Below, in pieces: positions 33,304-42,351 of a stretch of DNA of 42,568 nucleotides. Position 1 is the stretch's first letter. The number at the start of each line of letters is the position of its first letter. Where the stretch lies: the NCBI GenBank assembly GCA_903918755.1, contig CAIXFN010000011.1, forward strand, positions 1 through 42,568. Reading direction: 5' to 3'. Under the pieces are notes generated by a model. The model had not been told where the DNA came from. It saw only the letters and a program-made list of their open reading frames with translations, and did no database searches. The stretch is from an uncultured Pedosphaera sp. GTDB lineage: Bacteria; Verrucomicrobiota; Verrucomicrobiia; Limisphaerales; Pedosphaeraceae. Made by a program: the position numbers and the translations under genes.

Positions 33304-35181
33304 TCACCGTGCTGCCGGCCACACTTTGATTTGCACCACACCCACACCGGGATTCTCGAACGGACCGGGGAATGGATTACTTTCATTGCGCGGGTTGCCG
33401 AAGTAATCGGTGGTGAGGCGAAGGGGCGAGCCGTCGGGATTTTCGTAGGCGCAATTGGGCACTTGGGCGTGGCCCAGCAGTTTTGTCGTCACTAATTGCC
33501 GCACCGCCGCGTTGCGCCATGATTTGTCCTCGGCCAGCGTGAGGTACCAGCCGTCGGGCTTTTGCTCCAATTTCAGACCGGGATCGAATTCGGGCTGGAG
33601 CAGTGGGGCGGTGTCAAACTTTGACGGCCGGGCGCCGTGGGTAAAGACATTGCCGGCGGCGAAGGATGGGAGAGCGGCTGGGTCCAGCGTTTGCAGGCTG
33701 GCGGGCGCAAGGACAACGTTGTTGTAAAAGCGGTGGTCGCCGCTGTCGTTGGAAGCGGAAGCAACGTGCAGTCCGACGATTTCCGTGGCGTGCGCTGGCT
33801 GATACGGTGTCGCGCGGCGGTCGCCGCGCTGACTGCTGATGGGGCCGGCGATCAGGTTATGCCCGAAGGCGATGCCCTGCGAATTCAGGGCGAAGGCGTG
33901 TTTCGAGAGGAAAAGATTGTTGGCGAACAAGATCGGTCCGTGCTGCATCTCGCAAAAGACGTCGCCGCAGTCGCCCTGGTTATCGTGCAGCAAATTGCCG
34001 GTGACCTGCGCGCCCTGCGCCATCCAGTCCAGCCAGATGCCGGCCACCGGTCCGCAGCGGAAAATATGGTTGCCCCGGATGACCACATCAATCGCCCCGT
34101 GGAATTTGATGCCCGCCATTTCCGCGCCGCCAAAGGATTGCCCGAAATGAATGTCGTAAATCTCGTTGCCCGTAACGGTGCTAAACGAGCAACCGAGACT
34201 GCCGACGATGCCGGTCTGGCCACAGTGGTGGATGCGATTATTCCGCACGAGATGGCTGCCGACGGTGGCCTTATTCCAGCCATTTTTCAAAGCGCGCCGC
34301 ACGCAGTCGGTGTACGGGTCGGCGGAGCCTTGACCGTTGGTGTTGTCAAACTCGTCGCTGTATTTCCCCAGCGCAATGCCACAGCAACGCGAGTAAGCAA
34401 TCTCATTGTCCTCGATGATCCAGCCCTGGCACCAATAGGCAGAAATAACGCCAAACTGTCCGGCCGAAGGCGGCGCCCAAGGCGTGGCCGCATTCCGCAG
34501 GTCAAAGCCGCGCACGGTGAGGTAATTGATGCCCGTGTGCTCCGGCGTGAAGACGGTTTGACGAACATTGATTTCCACGGTTCCTTCGTTCGGATTGACG
34601 CCGGGGAACTGGGCCCAGAGGGTGGTGTTCGTCGTGTCCACCTCGGAAAACCAGAGCGCCGGTCCAGCCAGTGGTTTTAGGACTTCGTTCAGCGTGGCGG
34701 CTTCCGTCAACCATTCGCCGCGGAGATAAACAACGCCGGGGTGATGCTTCCGGCCCTGCCCATCAAACCAGTCGCCGTGGATGAGCTCGCGGTACGGATT
34801 GAAACTCCCAAAAAACGCATTGGGCAACGTGGCCTTCCAGACACCGTCCTGCACCTTCGCCCAGTTGGTGACCACTTCCGAGCCGGTGATTGTGACCCGC
34901 TCGCCCGCCGCAGCCTGATAGATGATCCGCTGCGCGTCCGACTGGCCGCCGCGCGGCGGATGCACGCGCTCGCGATAAACGCCCGCATGCACGGTGATGA
35001 CGTCGCCGGGTTGGGCGAGATTGGCGGCCTGTTGGATGGATCGAAATGGCAGGGCCAGGGTACCCGGATGATGATCATCACCCACAATGGCGACATGATA
35101 TTCGGTGGCGGTGGCGGTCAGATTCGTCATCCCCAGCGAGATCGAGAAGAGCCCGAAGCAAAGAAGGCGGATCAGTTTCAT
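33304..35181 (-). CDS. GH120-type beta-xylosidase (parallel beta-helix)
   Basis: The 625-residue exported protein has a signal peptide (ends LTATAT) and a right-handed parallel beta-helix. By recalled family features it resembles GH120 XylC: VYREWV-like start (VYRERVHPPRGG), VWKATLPNAFFGSFNPY, AATPWAPPSAGQFG, GWIIEDNEI, AGIKFHGAIDVVIRGN, and the active-site strands GIWLDWMAQG and DVFCEMQHGP. Asp385 and Glu411 (preferred numbering) occupy the positions of the GH120 nucleophile and acid/base. GH120 enzymes release xylose from xylo-oligosaccharides. The ATG at 35181 is preferred to 35259 because it begins the signal peptide. Divergent from the acyl carrier protein gene and convergent with the xylan run. 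Confidence 0.85.
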   Translation of the reverse strand: MKLIRLLCFGLFSISLGMTNLTATATEYHVAIVGDDHHPGTLALPFRSIQQAANLAQPGDVITVHAGVYRERVHPPRGGQSDAQRIIYQAAAGERVTITGSEVVTNWAKVQDGVWKATLPNAFFGSFNPYRELIHGDWFDGQGRKHHPGVVYLRGEWLTEAATLNEVLKPLAGPALWFSEVDTTNTTLWAQFPGVNPNEGTVEINVRQTVFTPEHTGINYLTVRGFDLRNAATPWAPPSAGQFGVISAYWCQGWIIEDNEIAYSRCCGIALGKYSDEFDNTNGQGSADPYTDCVRRALKNGWNKATVGSHLVRNNRIHHCGQTGIVGSLGCSFSTVTGNEIYDIHFGQSFGGAEMAGIKFHGAIDVVIRGNHIFRCGPVAGIWLDWMAQGAQVTGNLLHDNQGDCGDVFCEMQHGPILFANNLFLSKHAFALNSQGIAFGHNLIAGPISSQRGDRRATPYQPAHATEIVGLHVASASNDSGDHRFYNNVVLAPASLQTLDPAALPSFAAGNVFTHGARPSKFDTAPLLQPEFDPGLKLEQKPDGWYLTLAEDKSWRNAAVRQLVTTKLLGHAQVPNCAYENPDGSPLRLTTDYFGNPRNESNPFPGPFENPGVGVVQIKVWPAAR

Positions 35182-35244
35182 GGTACCCGTATGATTTTTC
35201 GCAAGACCAACCGCTGCTGAACATAACATAGCGGTTCCTAGACG

Positions 35245-35274
35245 AACAATCTGGTTCACTCAGCCAGAATTGTT
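35245..35274. promoter_or_regulatory. Imperfect inverted repeat upstream of the GH120 gene
   Basis: AACAATCTGG (35245-35254) and CCAGAATTGTT (35264-35274) form an inverted repeat with one bulged base. It lies 64 bases upstream of the GH120 ATG. An operator role is inferred. Confidence 0.3.
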
Positions 35275-35407: not shown

Positions 35408-35806
35408 ATGCAAACCGCAATCGCCATGAACCCCACCCGGGAAATCCCCGGGAATTTCGGCACCAAATCCGCCGGGCAGATCAGCGATGAATTGCTCGGC
35501 TTTCCCCCGTCGTGTCGCGCCGCCGCGTTGCGCTACCACGAGCAGGGTGACTTCGACGACCTGAGTGCGATGTTGCCGGGATTTATTGCGTTTCACCTTC
35601 CCAGTGGCACCGCCCATCCGCCCGAGCCACTCGCCGACACCCTGCGTTTGCAGGAGGATTTGGGGCTCGACTCGCTCGCCTTGACGGAGATGGCTTTCAA
35701 ACTCGAGGACTTGTTCGGGATTGCCGTCGAGACCAGCGAGGTGATGAATATCCATACGGTCGGCGATTTGAAAGCCTTCCTGAAACGCCGGCTCAACGCT
35801 GCGTGA
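35408..35806 (+). CDS. Acyl carrier protein, long form
   Basis: The 132-residue protein contains a carrier domain in its C-terminal half with the phosphopantetheine site LGLDSLALTEM (Ser89 from this start). LEDLFGIAVETSEVMNIHTVGDLKAFLKRRL is typical for helices 2-4. It has about 50 extra N-terminal residues beyond a usual 80-residue ACP; these include FPPSCRAAALRYHEQGDFDDLSAMLPGF and look helical. A start at 35426 is also possible. Its stop overlaps the ketosynthase start (GTGA). A dedicated carrier for the neighbouring ketosynthase, separate from the housekeeping fatty-acid ACP, is inferred. Confidence 0.88.
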   Translation: MQTAIAMNPTREIPGNFGTKSAGQISDELLGFPPSCRAAALRYHEQGDFDDLSAMLPGFIAFHLPSGTAHPPEPLADTLRLQEDLGLDSLALTEMAFKLEDLFGIAVETSEVMNIHTVGDLKAFLKRRLNAA

Positions 35807-37056
35807 ATACCTCCGCGTTCATCACCGGCCTGGGCTTGGTCACCAGCATTGGGCACTCCCGGAACGCCGTGAGTCAGGCCTTGCGCACCCTGACGCATGG
35901 TCTGGCACCCTGGGAAGGCGCCGGGAGCGGTGCCATCAAGGTAGCGGGGATGTTGCGCGGATTCGACGTAGGCTCAACTAATCCGGCCGCGTGGTCCTGG
36001 CCGGCCGAGTTCCATCTGGATAAGGCGGCGGTGCGCCTCATGCCACCGCACGGAGTCTATGCGATGGCGGCCGTGCAACAGGCATTGGCGGAAGCTCAGC
36101 TGGCAGCAGAAGACCTGCGGGATGGCACCACCGGTTTGTATTGCGCCTCCGCGGGATCCGCGAGGTTATTGCATCATCAACTGTCCAACCTCGAGGCGAG
36201 GGGCTGGGAGCGCGCCCACCCGCACGGAGTGATCAGTTCGGTCGCGGGAGCGCTCAATTTTCATCTGGCCTATCTGCTCGGCATCCGCGGAGCGAGTTGC
36301 GGGTTTGTGTCGGCCTGTTCTTCCGGCAGCCACGCGCTGGGTTTTGCCTTGGACGAGATCCGACTCGGCCGGCAGGAAAGGATGTTGGTAGTCGCAGCGG
36401 AAGATCTTACGGCGGAGAGCGCCCTGCCCTTCACGGGTATGGGAGCCTTGAGCCGGTCCGGCGATCCGAGACTGGCTTCCCGTCCGTTTGACCAGGAGCG
36501 GGACGGTTTTGTGCCCACGGGCGGCGCGGTGGCGCTTGTGCTGGAATCGGCGGCGAGCGCCGGCAGGCGCGGGGCCCGCGCCCTCGCGCGAATGCTGGGT
36601 TGGGGCCAGGCTTGCGATGGTCATCATGTGGCGCTGCCGCATCCGGAAGGTCGCGGACTCGTGGATGCCATTCACCGGGCGCTGCGGGACGCCGGGATCG
36701 ACCCCCAGGCCGTGGGCTATGTGAATGCACATGCCACTTCCACGCCGGCGGGAGACCGGGCAGAGGCGCGGGCCTTGTTGCAGGTGTTTGCCACGCATCC
36801 CGTTCCCGTGAGCAGCACCAAGGCCCTGACGGGACACGGATTGTCCCTCGCCGGCGCCCTAGAGGCGGCGTTCTGCGTGCTGGCGCTGGATGAAGGGTTC
36901 ATTCCCGGACAGGCGCATCTCATCGAGCCCGACGCCGATAGTGCGCGACTTAATCTGCCGCGCACTACCCGCTGCGAGCAACCGCACATTGCCGTCAACA
37001 ATAGCTGCGGCTTTGGCGGCAGCAATGTCGTCCATGTTTTCGCCACGGCTCGTTAA
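35803..37056 (+). CDS. Beta-ketoacyl-ACP synthase, KASII-type
   Basis: The 417-residue condensing enzyme has a complete catalytic triad: Cys172 in SACSSGSHA, His310 in VNAHATSTPAGD and His345 in LTGHGLSLAGALEA. NNSCGFGGSN near the end replaces the usual NSFGFGG. It should catalyse carbon-carbon bond formation between an acyl group and malonyl on the preceding ACP. It starts at a GTG overlapping the ACP stop. No ketoreductase, dehydratase or enoyl reductase is nearby, so any reduction would use housekeeping enzymes or not occur. Confidence 0.9.
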   Translation: MNTSAFITGLGLVTSIGHSRNAVSQALRTLTHGLAPWEGAGSGAIKVAGMLRGFDVGSTNPAAWSWPAEFHLDKAAVRLMPPHGVYAMAAVQQALAEAQLAAEDLRDGTTGLYCASAGSARLLHHQLSNLEARGWERAHPHGVISSVAGALNFHLAYLLGIRGASCGFVSACSSGSHALGFALDEIRLGRQERMLVVAAEDLTAESALPFTGMGALSRSGDPRLASRPFDQERDGFVPTGGAVALVLESAASAGRRGARALARMLGWGQACDGHHVALPHPEGRGLVDAIHRALRDAGIDPQAVGYVNAHATSTPAGDRAEARALLQVFATHPVPVSSTKALTGHGLSLAGALEAAFCVLALDEGFIPGQAHLIEPDADSARLNLPRTTRCEQPHIAVNNSCGFGGSNVVHVFATAR

Positions 37057-37096
37057 ACCCACTCGACACCCCAACCTCAAATCCCCAGCCAACCTC

Positions 37097-37486
37097 ATGC
37101 CTGCAGACCCCATCGTCACCACCATGATCAAAACCGGCTGGGCGGGCATGCTGCTCGGGGTGATTTCAGGCGCGGTCATTGGTTTGTGCTTTCACCGGGA
37201 AGAATGGATGGGCGGTTATGGCAGTTATCGGCGGCGGCTGACCCGGCTCGGGCATATCTCATTCTTCGGGCTGGCTTTCGTGAATTTTTGCTTTGCGTTC
37301 ACGCAATCCCAACTGCCGCTCCGGTCGCCATGGGGCACGGTGGCGATGGTGGGCCTCATTGTTGGCGCCGCGACCATGCCGGCCATTTGTTTCCTGAGCG
37401 CCTGGCGCAAACCGTTTCGTCACCTGTTCTTTATCCCGGTCAGCGGGGTGCTCACCGGCATCGTCTGTGAACTGCTTAACTTATGA
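37097..37486 (+). CDS. Four-helix membrane protein of unknown function
   Basis: The 129-residue protein has four predicted membrane helices (about 12-30, 53-70, 80-100 and 107-127) with short loops. The loop after helix 1 is basic and Gly/Tyr-rich (HREEWMGGYGSYRRRL). I recognise no family. It lies between the ketosynthase (40-base gap) and the radical SAM gene (ATGA overlap), so it likely belongs to the same operon. It may handle or house a lipid product; that is inference. An in-frame ATG at 37124 is an alternative start. Confidence 0.7.
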   Translation: MPADPIVTTMIKTGWAGMLLGVISGAVIGLCFHREEWMGGYGSYRRRLTRLGHISFFGLAFVNFCFAFTQSQLPLRSPWGTVAMVGLIVGAATMPAICFLSAWRKPFRHLFFIPVSGVLTGIVCELLNL

Positions 37487-38796
37487 AAATTGGACTGCTG
37501 GCCCTGAGCGGCGTGCGCTGCCGCAATGAGGAATTACTCGCCATGGGGCTCACGCTCCCAGGCTTTGTCGAACGGAGCAAGGTGATCGCGTCCCTGCCCA
37601 GCCTGGGCTTGCTGACCCTGGCCGGCATGACTCCGGCGGAGATCGAGGTGAGTTATCTCGAAGTGCCGGACCCTGGTTCGTTGAAGGAACTGCCGGGCGG
37701 ATTCGACGTGGTCGCCATTTCCAGTTTCACGGCCCAAATCAAGGAGGCCTACAAACTGGCGGACCGTTATCGCGCCGCAGGCGTAAAAGTGATCATGGGC
37801 GGCCTCCATGTGACGGCCCGAGCGGAGGAGGCGTTGTTGCATGCCGACAGCGTGCTGCTGGGCGAAGGGGAATCCCTCTGGCCACAGGTCATGGCCGACC
37901 TGCAGACGAACCGGTTGCAGCCCCGGTACGACGCGCGCGCCCGGAACTTTGATTTCGCGCAATCACCGATGCCGCGTTTTGAACTGCTCGACGTTTCTCA
38001 ATACAACCGGATCACCGTGCAAACCCAGCGCGGCTGTCCCTTCAACTGTGATTTCTGCGGAGCGTCCATCCGGCTCAATCCCCGGTTCAAGACGAAACCG
38101 GTGGACCGGGTGATTGCCGAAATTCAGCGGATCAAAACGATCTGGCCCCACCCCTTCATTGAGTTTGCCGACGACAACACTTTCGCGGACAAAGCGCACG
38201 GACGGGAACTGGTGCGCGCACTCATCCCGGAGGGCCTGCGCTGGTTCACCGAGACGGACATCAGCATCGCCCGGGACCCGGAATTACTGGCCCTAATGAA
38301 AGAGGCAGGCTGCGCGCAAATCTTAATCGGCTTGGAAAGCCCCACGACGGCGGGGCTCGACGGCCTCGAGCACAAGGCAAATTGGAAACTCAAGCAACGA
38401 GAGGGTTATCAGCGGGCAATCGCAACCATTCAAGACGCGGGCATCACGGTCAACGGCTGTTTTGTCCTGGGACTCGACGGGCAGGATGACACGAGCTTCG
38501 ACGCTGTCTTCGACTTCGTCCGCGCCTCCGGTCTCTATGAGGTGCAAATCACCGTGATGACCGCGTTTCCGAACGCCCCGTTGTATGATCGGCTGCACAC
38601 CGCTGGCCGCCTGTTGGATGCGGAAGCCTGGGAAGCCTGCACGCTCTTCGATGTCAATTACGTACCGGAAAAGATGTCGGTGACAGGACTGGAACAAGGA
38701 TTCCGCGGTCTGGCGCGACGAATCTATGACACCGGATTCATCGAGGAACGGCGGCGGCGGTTCTTCGAGCGTATCCGTATTGCTAACCCCGTATAG
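37483..38796 (+). CDS. B12-binding-type radical SAM enzyme
   Basis: The 437-residue protein has an N-terminal B12-binding-like Rossmann region (about 30-140; VIMGGLHVTARAEEALLHADSVLLGEGE). A radical SAM barrel follows, with the 4Fe-4S cluster ligands Cys185, Cys189 and Cys192 in RGCPFNCDFCG, then a SAM-binding barrel (INGCFVLGLDGQDDTSFDAVFDF). Enzymes of this class perform methylations or rearrangements on unreactive carbons, including lipids. The last residues (about IRIANPV) are encoded by sequence shared with the repeat at 42428, so the native C-terminus may have been changed by an insertion. Last gene of the operon. Confidence 0.87.
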   Translation: MKIGLLALSGVRCRNEELLAMGLTLPGFVERSKVIASLPSLGLLTLAGMTPAEIEVSYLEVPDPGSLKELPGGFDVVAISSFTAQIKEAYKLADRYRAAGVKVIMGGLHVTARAEEALLHADSVLLGEGESLWPQVMADLQTNRLQPRYDARARNFDFAQSPMPRFELLDVSQYNRITVQTQRGCPFNCDFCGASIRLNPRFKTKPVDRVIAEIQRIKTIWPHPFIEFADDNTFADKAHGRELVRALIPEGLRWFTETDISIARDPELLALMKEAGCAQILIGLESPTTAGLDGLEHKANWKLKQREGYQRAIATIQDAGITVNGCFVLGLDGQDDTSFDAVFDFVRASGLYEVQITVMTAFPNAPLYDRLHTAGRLLDAEAWEACTLFDVNYVPEKMSVTGLEQGFRGLARRIYDTGFIEERRRRFFERIRIANPV

Positions 38797-38910
38797 GCAG
38801 GAAAACGGGCAGCGGTTACGCTGCCCGGCATGTCAATTCTGCTTGGCTTTGGCAGCCTTCCAGGCGGTGGGCGTCAGTTCGGCAACCCGATTGATGGGCC
38901 AGTCGCCGAG
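38770..38910 (+). repeat. Direct repeat, left copy (IS66-like 3' end)
   Basis: 141 bases are nearly identical (about 10 differences) to 42428-42568, in the same orientation. It includes the last codons of the radical SAM gene and the end of an IS66-like transposase on the minus strand. A perfect 8-bp stem CGGGCAGC/GCTGCCCG lies at 38806-38827; it is degraded in the right copy. Confidence 0.9.
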
Positions 38911-39081
38911 CTTGGGCAATACCTCGGTCAGGTATTCCCGCAGATTGATGTCCAAGCGACGGCAGGTTTCAATAATCGACGCGATGGCTGCCACTTTCGG
39001 CCCGGTTTCCTCACTCCCAAGGTGCAACCAGTTCTTGCGACCAAGGGCCAGCGGCCGCATCCCACCTTCACACCAGTTATG
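38833..39081 (-). pseudogene. IS66-like transposase, C-terminal remnant
   Basis: The minus-strand reading NWCEGGMRPLALGRKNW, followed by LGSEETGPKVAAIASIIETCRRLDINLREYL and WPINRVAELTPTAWK, is the C-terminal part of an IS66 (TnpC-type) transposase. Everything N-terminal is missing. Homology stops at about 39081, next to TTATGCCGCGT, where the recombinase element begins. It is therefore a truncated, inactive copy. Confidence 0.85.
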
Positions 39082-39170: not shown

Positions 39171-40166
39171 TCAGAGGCTTTCCAAGAAGGCGATCAGTTG
39201 ATCCGTTGGCCGATACCGCTTCGGTGCCAGGTTGGTCTTGGTGGTGCGGCCCAGCGCTTTTTCTTTTATGGCCATGTCAGCGTGAAGGTACATTTGAGTG
39301 GTTTCGATGGACTCATGTCCCAACCACAGTGCGATCACTGTAATATCCACCCCGCGACGCAGCAAATTCATCGCTGACGTATGGCGCAAAGTGTGGGGCG
39401 TCACTTTTTTTCTTTGAAGTGAAGGACTCGTTTGTGCGGCGGTTTAAACATGCCGGGCCACCAACCTCTGCAGCGCGTCAGAACTCATCGGCTTGCCCAT
39501 TGCGGTTGGAAAGACAGGCGTGGCTGGATCGGAAGACACTTCTTTCAGCCAGGCGGACAGTTGGGATGCCACATCAGATCGCAAAGGAGTGCATCGAGCT
39601 TTGCGCCCTTTTCCGAGGCATCGAACATGCGCTCCTGCGCCCAACTGGACGTTCTGCCGTTGCAACTGTGTCAACTCCGAGTTCCGCAAACCCGTCTGCA
39701 CTGCTACTTGCAACAAAGTCCGGTCGCGCCGTCCAAGCCATGTAGCGGGATCAGGGGCTTTCAATAACGCGTCGGCTTCCTCTTCTGTCAAGAACGCAAC
39801 GGGGCCTCGCTCAAATCGTTTGAAAGGCACGCCCAACACCCGCTGGCAATGTTCCGATAATGCGGGATCGTTGAGGCTTACCTGCGCGAAAAATGCATGG
39901 ATCGCGCTCAAACGATTGTTGCGGCTGCGAACTGAGACGTGGCGTTCCTGCTCAAGATGCTTGAGGAATGCCCCCACCAGTTTGACATCCAAATCATCAA
40001 CGTTTAGCGCGCTGGCCGGGCGTTGGCAGGTCTTTGAGGCGTATTTAAGCAACAGGCGGAATGTGTCTCGATAGCTGGCTACCGTATGTGGGCTGGCTCC
40101 CAATTGCCCCAGCAAACGGTCGGTGAAGAACCGCTGTAAATGGCCGGCCAAGTTTGGTGTTTTCAT
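39171..40166 (-). pseudogene. Third tyrosine recombinase of the trio, with an in-frame stop
   Basis: From the ATG at 40166 (overlapping the previous stop) one continuous frame runs to 39171 with a single TAA at 39444-39446. Before it: an SAM-like N-terminal domain, TGLRNSELTQL (catalytic Arg) and GKGRKARCTPL (Lys region). After it: PHTLRHTSAMNL, LGHESIETTQMYLHAD (His and the nucleophile Tyr). The catalytic residues are thus split. Read through, it would be about 330 residues, a normal length. Unless the stop is suppressed the enzyme is inactive. Confidence 0.85.
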
Positions 40167-41110
40167 GAATGGCCTCCACGGCTGGAGGGGAGTTTGAACT
40201 CGGTTGCCAGCGCCAATAGTTCTGGAACAGCCTGGATATACCAATAGGTGCAGCTTACCGATGAGTGTCCCAAATAGGTCGACAGCTTCGGCAGTTGAGC
40301 CGTGACATTCTCCCGGGCGCGATACCATTCCACCAAACGCCTTGTGGCGAACGTATGCCGCAAGTCTTGAAGTCGCGGACCTCTGCCACATCGATGGCCT
40401 TCGCTTTTTCCCCGCAAGCCGCAGTTCCGTGAGATTTGGCAAAACCACCTCCGGACAGTGCTGGCATCCAAGGCAGTCCCATGATCAGAGAGGAAAAAGC
40501 AGGATTCGCCGGGAGGGCAAAACATCTGATCACAGCGACGAACGTAATGTTTTAAAGCCCTGACCGTTGATGGATGAATGGGTATCTGCCGGGATTTGCC
40601 GAACTTCGATTCCCGGATCATCAAAATTCCCGCCAGAAAGTCCACATCTCCTCTTTTCAAGGCGAACGCCTCGCCTGGCCGCAAACCGGTCGCCGCCAGC
40701 AGGCCAATGATGGTTTCGAGATTCAGTGATCTCATGCCCGTGTCAGAGTCAGGCTTGGCCGCTTCAGCCATCAAGGCGGCGATTTCTTCGTCGCTGTAGA
40801 TATGCGGTGGATTGCGATGATGCCGCACGCCCAATAGTCTGGGTGGCGGGATTTGGTGTCGCGGATCAACGGCATGGACCCAGCGGGCAAACTGGCGGAC
40901 CATTGATAGCTTCCGGGCCCAGGTGGCACGCTGTACATTTTTGGATTCCTGCGACCATTCCAAAGCCAGCGGTGTTGTAATGTGGGCAGAACGCTTGCGC
41001 GCCAGGAACTTGATAAAGTGTCGCAATGTTTGAGCCGGTTCCTCCAGCCGGGTGCCGAGTGCTCGTCGCGCCGCTATGTATTCAACCAAGTGGGCCTGTA
41101 ACGATTTCAT
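40163..41110 (-). CDS. Second tyrosine recombinase of the trio
   Basis: The 315-residue recombinase starts at the ATG at 41110, overlapping the previous stop by 4 bases. The motifs are TGLRPGEAFAL (Arg I), an RESKFGKSR lysine region, LQDLRHTFATRRL (Gln replaces the usual first His of HxxR), LGHSSVSCTYWYIQ with the His and nucleophile Tyr. The catalytic set is otherwise complete. It acts on DNA with its partner recombinases by strand exchange. Overlaps the third gene by ATGA. The longer frame to 41134 is rejected because it would start inside the first recombinase gene. Confidence 0.88.
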   Translation of the reverse strand: MKSLQAHLVEYIAARRALGTRLEEPAQTLRHFIKFLARKRSAHITTPLALEWSQESKNVQRATWARKLSMVRQFARWVHAVDPRHQIPPPRLLGVRHHRNPPHIYSDEEIAALMAEAAKPDSDTGMRSLNLETIIGLLAATGLRPGEAFALKRGDVDFLAGILMIRESKFGKSRQIPIHPSTVRALKHYVRRCDQMFCPPGESCFFLSDHGTALDASTVRRWFCQISRNCGLRGKSEGHRCGRGPRLQDLRHTFATRRLVEWYRARENVTAQLPKLSTYLGHSSVSCTYWYIQAVPELLALATEFKLPSSRGGHS

Positions 41111-42351
41111 TTCCCACCTCCTTGCCCCGGCCAAGGTCGGACAACCTCATCAAGTGAGCTGCGATCAATCTTGGCATAAATCTCCGTGCTGCTATACGCC
41201 CGATGGCGAAGCACTTCCGCAATATCCCGCAGCTTGGCTCCTTGTTGAAGCATTCGACTGGCCAGGGTGTGCCGAAAGAGGTGGGCGGCAATATGTTTGG
41301 GACGTTCGATGCCGGCTTGTGCCAGGCAGCGCCGGACAATATGGCCAATGCTCGCGGGACCGGTGAGCGGCACCCGTGGGGCATTCGCCCGCAAGAACAC
41401 TCGTTGCGTTCGCCGAGCGCCACGATCCAAACGCAAATAGTGCGCAATAGCCGCCCCGGTTTCATGCGGCAGCGGAAGAACGTCCCGACGAGCCCCCTTG
41501 CCGCGGATCAGGATTTCACCAGACCGCCAAAAAAGGTCGTTTGTTTGAAGAGTAATGACCTCACCAGCCCGCAGCCCAAGTCGGGCCAGCAAAAGCAGGA
41601 TGGCGTAATTGCGCCGGCCAGTGGCCGATTTCCGATCCGGCACCGCCAAGACCCGCTTCACTTCATCTGGTGTGAGTTTCTTGGGCACGCTGGTTTGGCT
41701 CCATTTTCGCACGGTCGGAACCGCCGTCGTCAGATCGTCGGCAATTTTGCCCCGCAGATGGAGAAAACGTACGAAGGAGCGCAGGCTGATGGCCAGCAAC
41801 CTCACATACTCGCTCGACCGGCCCTTGGCGCGCCCAAATAAAAAATGGCGGATGATTGAGGCATTCAACCGGCGGAGGCCAGTCCGGTCGTGCTTGCCAT
41901 GCAAGTATTCGACCAGACTGGCGGCTACGGGCAAATAAACCCGAAGCGATGATTCCGCCAAACCCTTCTCATCGCGAAGGAAATCAGCGTAGCTTTGTAG
42001 CAACCGGTCCCTGGCCGTGGACTGTACAGTCGAAGACTGCTCTCGAATCAGTCCGTGACGCCGAAGATGCTCCAAAAAACCTAACAAAGCCGTGGAGGCA
42101 AGGCAACGATGGGCTGCATCCAGTTTGCAGGCTTTGGCCATGAATGCCTTCACCTCAGCTTCATCTGGTTCGGAATCGGTCTTACTTCGGCTCTGCCGCC
42201 AAATAAAAAACTTTCGCAAAGCGGCGCGCTTGGTGCTGAGAGTGTTGGCCGGATAGCCAGCGTTTTTCAGATCGGAGACGAAGGGATCAACTTGGGATGC
42301 GAGGACATCACCTATCAGACAACGATTTTTTGCAGTGCTTTTGATTTTCAT
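41107..42351 (-). CDS. First tyrosine recombinase of the trio
   Basis: The 414-residue recombinase has an N-terminal core-binding region (about 100-215) and a C-terminal catalytic domain. LGLRAGEVITL holds Arg I, IRGKGARRDVLPL the Lys, HLFRHTLASRML is the intact HxxR box, and LRHRAYSSTEIYAKID holds the His and nucleophile Tyr. The N-terminal ~90 residues are a divergent arm-like region. It is the first gene of the trio. The ATG at 42351 is used; 50 bases upstream lies the right inverted repeat. Confidence 0.9.
   Translation of the reverse strand: MKIKSTAKNRCLIGDVLASQVDPFVSDLKNAGYPANTLSTKRAALRKFFIWRQSRSKTDSEPDEAEVKAFMAKACKLDAAHRCLASTALLGFLEHLRRHGLIREQSSTVQSTARDRLLQSYADFLRDEKGLAESSLRVYLPVAASLVEYLHGKHDRTGLRRLNASIIRHFLFGRAKGRSSEYVRLLAISLRSFVRFLHLRGKIADDLTTAVPTVRKWSQTSVPKKLTPDEVKRVLAVPDRKSATGRRNYAILLLLARLGLRAGEVITLQTNDLFWRSGEILIRGKGARRDVLPLPHETGAAIAHYLRLDRGARRTQRVFLRANAPRVPLTGPASIGHIVRRCLAQAGIERPKHIAAHLFRHTLASRMLQQGAKLRDIAEVLRHRAYSSTEIYAKIDRSSLDEVVRPWPGQGGGK

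Follow-up and report, generated by a model that had tools for sequence, protein, structure and literature searches.

The window analysed here, the whole of a 42,568-nucleotide contig (CAIXFN010000011.1) in the 7.2 Mb, 118-contig draft genome of an uncultured Pedosphaera sp., carries on its plus strand, at positions 35408–38796, a tight operon for an acyl carrier protein (ACP), a ketosynthase (KS), a four-helix integral membrane protein (MEM) and a B12-binding-type radical S-adenosylmethionine (SAM) protein (rSAM). We found that the conserved unit is the MEM-rSAM pair and not the four-gene set, and that this pair is patchily distributed and lies outside the coverage of existing family models. 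We tentatively favour an explanation in which rSAM, docked at the membrane through MEM, modifies a lipid, with the acyl chain as the likeliest target and an unusual membrane lipid as the probable product.

The operon and its conserved MEM-rSAM pair

All four open reading frames are present and open. The ACP gene (35408–35806, 132 aa) overlaps that of KS (35803–37056, 417 aa) by 4 bp at 35803–35806, a gap of 40 bp separates KS from MEM (37097–37486, 129 aa), and MEM overlaps rSAM (37483–38796, 437 aa) by a further 4 bp at 37483–37486, bearing out the tightly packed operon with two 4-bp overlaps of the original prediction. A contig scan returned 438 rSAM relatives, 80 of which were kept; these, together with finds from genome searches, make up the loci cited by L numbers. 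Three of them (L020, L021, L022) have the genes in the same order, ACP-KS-MEM-rSAM, and L023, whose contig starts inside KS, reads KS-MEM-rSAM. When the four genes were each compared with their counterparts in L020–L022, non-synonymous divergence (dN) was far below synonymous divergence (dS) in 11 of the 12 cases, with dS close to saturation (dN/dS against L020: rSAM 0.087/1.77, MEM 0.21/1.56, KS 0.17/1.47, ACP 0.34/1.66); in the twelfth, ACP against L022, dS was undefined. The four genes are under purifying selection, and the operon goes beyond chance, since its order is kept in L020–L023 and dN is so much smaller than dS.

At the domain level rSAM proved to be the B12-type radical SAM protein that had been proposed: it matches PF04055 (60 bits, cut-off 29.5), PF02310 (44.8 bits, cut-off 32.1) and DUF4070 (27 bits) above their Pfam cut-offs, and the cysteines C185, C189 and C192 of its CxxxCxxC motif (residues 185–192) are invariant across 32 rSAM rows. 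Among the matches listed (25 of 29 families) it reached no NCBIfam cut-off, scoring 58.9 bits against AprD4 (NF033070, cut-off 500), 83.3 bits against HpnJ (TIGR03471, cut-off 577.6), 56.8 bits against the ladderane-associated TIGR04072 (cut-off 360) and 76.4 bits, again far below the cut-off, against BchE; it is thus no member of the first three. HpnJ, HpnR, BchE, PhpK and the TIGR04072 proteins share the B12-binding and radical SAM domains with rSAM, but rSAM scores far below their curated cut-offs and falls, with its orthologues, into a single clade of its own (43 rows, SH-aLRT 100 in the rSAM tree). Some B12-binding radical SAM enzymes of this kind (HpnJ, HpnR, BchE, PhpK, ladderane-associated) serve lipid pathways. 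In the AlphaFold model of rSAM (predicted local distance difference test, pLDDT, 87.4), confidence drops below 50 at residues 26–38, inside a highly conserved stretch, which would fit a segment that becomes ordered by a partner or substrate.

In the mechanical list of reading frames MEM begins within KS, at 36890; conservation points to 37097 as the start, which yields the 129-residue protein, predicted to form four helices (mean pLDDT 95.4). An alignment of 26 rows holds 19 invariant columns, 11 of them within residues 29–53, that is, in the loop after helix 1 and at the start of helix 2. By the positive-inside rule, this Arg-rich loop would face the cytosol and hence rSAM. No Pfam model scored above its cut-off, NCBIfam models gave no match to the longer frame starting at 36890, and Foldseek returned no match to the MEM model at E 0.001 or better; MEM, noticed before as a membrane protein, bears no family name. 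The top VIA ranks were parts of haem-copper oxidases (Z up to 12.6), the styrene oxide isomerase 8pnu and MAPEG-type enzymes, all within the background common for helical bundles (Z below ~13). MEM aligns end to end with 8pnu (Z 11.4, 122 residues) and with MAPEG-type enzymes (prostaglandin E, leukotriene C4 and glutathione transferase enzymes; Z 8 to 10), but with an identity of only 3–11%. That MEM might be a haem protein is a hint from the fold only.

The 32 kept relatives L020–L051 are 50–88% identical to rSAM, and the next relative 37%. In a phylum sample of 387 genomes, with MEM called at E 1e-8 or better and rSAM orthologues at E 1e-100 or better, MEM was present in 13 genomes and rSAM in 18; all 13 MEM genes lie within ~100 bp of rSAM (G166 being counted by its split N-terminal piece), and the two co-occur with a Fisher p of 1.5e-20, uncorrected for kinship. 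Of 48 rSAM loci, 36 have MEM as the next gene upstream, read from the same strand, and 20 of these show an overlap of the 4-bp type; this count omits L138, L139, L142 and L143, which share contigs with L041, L042, L038 and L048, and the paralogue loci L103, L106 and L107. The two proteins also diverge in parallel, their distances being correlated across the 25 loci present in both alignments (r = 0.857; 0 of 2000 permutations as high), although co-inheritance alone would lead to such a correlation as well. By record labels, which may be wrong for metagenome-assembled genomes (MAGs), the hosts belong to Verrucomicrobiota, Kiritimatiellota, Planctomycetota, Eisenbacteria and, as single MAGs, other phyla; two are cultured, Pontiella sulfatireligans (L034) and Pelagicoccus mobilis (L047).

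Searched for in other genomes, the four-gene set of the original prediction does recur, but only in close relatives, whereas the MEM-rSAM pair recurs more widely. We rejected the set as the conserved entity: MEM-rSAM is near-constant, a KS turned up in just 6 of these 48 loci, and the KS family is widespread without rSAM.

Two further hydrophobic families were observed beside rSAM. One, c15, a multi-helix family without a name, adjoins it in L033, L040, L049, L129, L130, L132, L133, L134 and weakly L136, MEM being absent from some of these. The other, C9, a second small hydrophobic protein with a weak likeness to DUF4345, lies by rSAM in L029, L030, L032, L035, L036, L050, L128, L131 and L141; in L027 it stands in front of MEM. 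The simple gene caller overlooked some small genes that overlap others, and the neighbours were therefore examined on stop-to-stop frames with models made for this analysis.

The KS-ACP module and other acyl-ACP neighbours

The ACP carries the DSL serine and matches PF00550 (39.2 bits), and its N-terminus is ~50 residues longer than that of a standard ACP, confirming a long form; this N-terminal part is conserved in L020–L022. KS has the domains PF00109 and PF02801 of elongating ketoacyl-ACP synthases (KAS) and their catalytic residues (C172, H310, K340, H345), which are invariant in nine aligned rows. Of the intact KASII-type synthase claimed originally, the KAS domains and the intact catalytic residues stand; against the FabF (KAS II) model TIGR03150 (cut-off 493.75), however, KS scores 302.7 bits and so is not a FabF equivalog. 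It shares the fold family and the catalytic Cys, His, Lys and His with FabF, but differs by a long stem and by two motifs: the operon KS falls into a divergent clade (SH-aLRT 99, stem of 2.72 changes per column in a quick tree of 35 rows, the stem being flagged as a long branch), and the five operon KSs aligned have Ala in place of Gly after the His of the HGT motif, and NSC or NSS where FabF has NSF. An altered KS gate was considered and rejected: the gating Phe sits in the GFGG loop, as described in excerpts of PMC7138838, so that the residue changed from NSF to NSC or NSS is not the gate, and the GFGG loop is intact.

KS and ACP are not the housekeeping copies of the cell. The same genome holds two further KS genes, 36% and 41% (over 261 residues) identical to the operon KS; one of the two, a fabF, follows an acpP-like gene on contig C104 that has a DSL site as well, and both lie behind a frame read by eye as fabG. 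The KS family is present in 54 of the 387 phylum genomes, all within the class of the window and 35 of them in one family. Among the neighbours scanned beside KS-ACP relatives elsewhere in this class are a short-chain dehydrogenase, glycosyltransferases of group 1 and a pair of GT28-like proteins, only one of which passes the Pfam cut-off; one of the glycosyltransferases found there is weakly similar to monogalactosyldiacylglycerol (MGDG) synthase. Beside divergent KSs we also observed an ACP fused to a FabA-like dehydratase (L170:6854-7792, L171:8558-9523, L172:10801-11778); a model built from these three loci found the fusion in 8 of 14 KS loci examined, a survey that missed the KS of L212 through the gene caller. 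The window's ACP is its genome's best match to this fusion (E 2.8e-12) and resembles the carrier half. Given this resemblance and the glycosyltransferase neighbours of its KS relatives, the operon looks as if a chain-building module of glycolipid type, minus its dehydratase, had been joined to MEM-rSAM. The steps of reduction and dehydration would then fall to the general fatty acid synthase.

Around the rSAM orthologues, acyl-ACP genes appear in four arrangements. ACP-KS precedes MEM-rSAM in the window, L020, L021 and L022, and in L023 from KS on. L025 has the order MEM-rSAM-ACP-KS-MMPL, with a ceramidase-like match below cut-off upstream and also a sigma-54 activator, and its KS is not allied to that of the window in the KS tree. 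Ten Pontiella-type loci (L034, L038, L039, L041, L042, L043, L045, L048, L137, L140) carry an Aas/LplT-like fusion, found with a model built here; that of L034 combines the Pfam domains MFS, acyltransferase and AMP-binding and scores 1171.3 bits against an NCBIfam cut-off of 1221. These loci also carry an alpha/beta hydrolase, a sigma-54 activator where the contig reaches that far, and sometimes a GNAT-CobD-like fusion. In L135, finally, an AMP-binding piece and an ACP precede rSAM. The four arrangements are four lineages and not many independent counts. A lipid or acyl role of rSAM is supported by these separate acyl-ACP contexts and, more weakly, by the company of distant relatives. Of the small pathway for a modified fatty acyl or lipid proposed originally, the lipid role is thus supported by these contexts, but the four genes are two modules.

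In the Pontiella-type loci a FeeM-like GNAT domain fused to a CobD/HisC-like pyridoxal phosphate (PLP) enzyme was observed beside MEM-rSAM (L031:1497-3266, L042:5915-7639, L043:4812-6638), and a model built here found the fusion in five of them (L031, L039, L042, L043, L048). A sphingolipid reading of this fusion was rejected, the PLP part being CobD/HisC-like in all three proteins scanned. Aminotransferases of L028, L036 and L037 at first clustered with it; the two that were scanned are other enzymes.

Among 48 loci of distant rSAM relatives (L052–L099), 24 hold a KS within the stretch fetched. At L067 lies a cluster of the type II fatty-acid-like kind, whose genes comprise a KS, an enoyl-CoA hydratase and an ACP as well as dehydratase-like, KS III-like and acyltransferase-like ones. 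Its rSAM relative is fused to a 3-hydroxyacyl-CoA dehydrogenase (L067:7944-10517), and many Bacteroidales loci show similar synteny. The radical SAM proteins of such Bacteroidales clusters (many of L058–L099) are 29–37% identical to rSAM and share its acyl-ACP context. Within the window's own family, G004 and G006 have a relative of 28% identity ~1.3 kb from a KS.

A comparable combination of a FabF paralogue with a B12-domain radical SAM protein is known from the clusters proposed for anammox ladderanes, where, according to excerpts of PMC2649909, FabF paralogues occur with radical SAM enzymes, one of them with a B12 domain. Those clusters are large sets of type II fatty acid synthesis genes with phytoene-desaturase-like genes (PMC2649909), whereas the operon has four genes, none of them of that kind, and lacks the several radical SAM genes of a ladderane cluster.

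Contrary evidence and rival explanations

Several observations weigh against a MEM-rSAM system acting on acyl chains. Twelve of the 48 rSAM loci have no MEM directly upstream. In this group, only 129 bp lie upstream of rSAM in L031, and the rSAM start was not seen in L044. The genome of L024 carries MEM with ACP-KS at the end of another contig (L168). Behind rSAM, L030 and L032 have C9, L030 with a weak partial MEM-like match downstream too, and c15 adjoins rSAM in L040, L049, L132, L133, L134 and L136 (weakly in L136, as a divergent copy in L040). L135 has ACP and the AMP-binding piece in place of MEM. As most MEM-less loci carry C9 or c15, a hydrophobic multi-helix protein neighbours rSAM in 44 of the 48 loci.

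With the models built here, the 48 loci showed no acyl gene outside the window-type and Pontiella-type loci, L025 and L135; pilus or secretion genes, for instance, lie nearby in L131 and L100. The KS-bearing Bacteroidales proteins, whose loci yielded no MEM, branch outside the other relatives in a rooted rSAM tree, in which the order of deep branches is only moderately supported (built from 73 of the 99 rows after thinning of the outgroup and removal of L070 and of a weak row for L072; L049, L051, L137, L140 and L141 not included). A sister-group relation to the window's clade was therefore rejected, and the KS context of these relatives is weak evidence on the substrate.

The KS family occurs in 4 of the 18 rSAM genomes and in 50 of the 369 others (p = 0.23, Fisher), which is no significant co-occurrence; that eight of ten chosen rSAM genomes have the family was discarded as proof of a shared pathway, given this test across the 387 genomes. 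Such figures favour a chance or regulatory joining of unrelated modules, KS-ACP serving one lipid and MEM-rSAM another job, as do the placement of KS away from MEM-rSAM in the genomes of L026, L028 and L047 and the presence of MEM-rSAM without this KS in G003 and G007. We consider this joining rather doubtful: the joined order persists in L020–L023 despite near-saturated synonymous sites, L168 keeps ACP-KS-MEM together at a contig end, and L025 has joined a different KS and ACP to MEM-rSAM.

The nearest solved fold to the rSAM model is that of AprD4, a radical SAM 1,2-diol dehydratase acting on an aminosugar (PDB 6fd2; Foldseek E 8.1e-22; VIA Z 32.7, next 27.9; two-domain fold shared over 386 residues, 21% identity), followed by MgmA, CysS, TsrM and OxsB. 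Structures of the tetraether lipid synthase (Tes, GDGT-MAS; 7TOL, 7TOM) are not among the 50 fold matches listed, which excludes no likeness to them. The AprD4 fold raises an alternative in which MEM would present a membrane glycolipid whose polar head group, as a sugar or polyol diol, rSAM would attack much as AprD4 does its substrate, with KS-ACP making the acyl part of that glycolipid. The short-chain dehydrogenase and the glycosyltransferases next to KS-ACP relatives, including the weakly MGDG-synthase-like one, would suit it, as would the MGDG reported among Pontiella lipids (excerpts of PMC7356697). We nevertheless regard this as unlikely, in view of the low score against the AprD4 family model, of a shared fold showing no function, and of the lack of any glycosyltransferase among 40 scanned proteins near MEM-rSAM loci (a chosen set). 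The substrate of AprD4 is a soluble aminosugar, the enzyme works without cobalamin, and we know of no MEM-like partner for it.

Alternatively, rSAM might modify a non-fatty-acyl membrane molecule, for instance a hopanoid, a quinone or MEM itself. HpnJ and BchE are among its best NCBIfam scores, though far below cut-off, and the host has a true HpnJ (contig C34, L103:8320-9771; TIGR03471, 765.1 bits, cut-off 577.6), on which basis it probably makes hopanoids, so that hopanoid-like substrates may exist in the cell. Among the same 40 neighbour proteins no hopanoid or quinone gene was recognised, and we judge a substrate of this kind quite improbable.

The preferred reading, an acyl substrate, also has to accommodate the lipids of P. 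sulfatireligans F21, whose genome carries the MEM-rSAM pair (L034). The excerpted species description (PMC7356697) lists i-C12:0, i-C14:0, i-C16:0, C18:0 and i-C18:0 as major fatty acids, all common saturated straight or iso chains, with phosphatidylglycerol, MGDG, cardiolipins and lyso-cardiolipins as lipids, and those excerpts report no unusual acyl chain. The product would therefore have to be a minor component, one formed on induction, or something other than an ester-bound fatty acid.

Flanking DNA and proposed function

On its 3' side the operon is bordered by mobile DNA, as had been noticed before. A C-terminal fragment of an IS66 transposase (38833–39060, minus strand; PF13817 37.3 bits, cut-off 30) starts directly behind it, followed by three tandem tyrosine recombinases on the same strand (39171–42351), the last split over two frames (39444–40448 and 39171–39404), with PF00589 above cut-off in 4 of 4 pieces; we take this trio to resemble a RIT element. 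At its extreme C-terminus the window's rSAM departs from its relatives and, with the IS66 fragment right behind, this indicates that an insertion probably replaced a variable rSAM tail. The suggestion that downstream genes were lost found no support: the gene clusters of L020–L023 share only the four operon genes with the window and have no gene in common downstream of rSAM, and there is thus no sign of a lost partner gene. Upstream, on the opposite strand, 33304–35259 encodes a beta-helix protein with a glycoside hydrolase 120 insertion domain.

In the mechanism we propose, MEM would sit in the cytoplasmic membrane and present its conserved Arg/Trp/Gly loop to the cytosol, where soluble rSAM would dock on it. 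Using SAM and probably cobalamin, rSAM would abstract a hydrogen from an unreactive lipid carbon, most likely in an acyl chain, and either methylate it or form a C-C bond. The dedicated ketosynthase and the long ACP would prepare or extend the acyl chain in the lineage of the window; in other lineages, the place of KS-ACP would be taken by an Aas/LplT-like acyl-ACP synthetase/acyltransferase accompanied by a hydrolase, or by an ACP together with an AMP ligase.

Several lipid biomarkers and unusual membrane lipids are products of radical SAM enzymes, and an enzyme of this class that nearly always comes with a membrane partner would represent a new arrangement. The pair is named in no title or abstract opening found in our literature search, most subscription journals lying outside it. 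That KS-ACP is separable from MEM-rSAM singles out MEM and rSAM as the genes for first tests, and the cultured hosts P. sulfatireligans and P. mobilis allow a direct look for the product. On a still more cautious estimate, MEM-rSAM may be a lipid-modifying system of two components, not described so far and equipped with an integral membrane subunit of its own, present in several phyla, which would draw its acyl chain from interchangeable acyl-ACP modules and make a membrane lipid not yet known.

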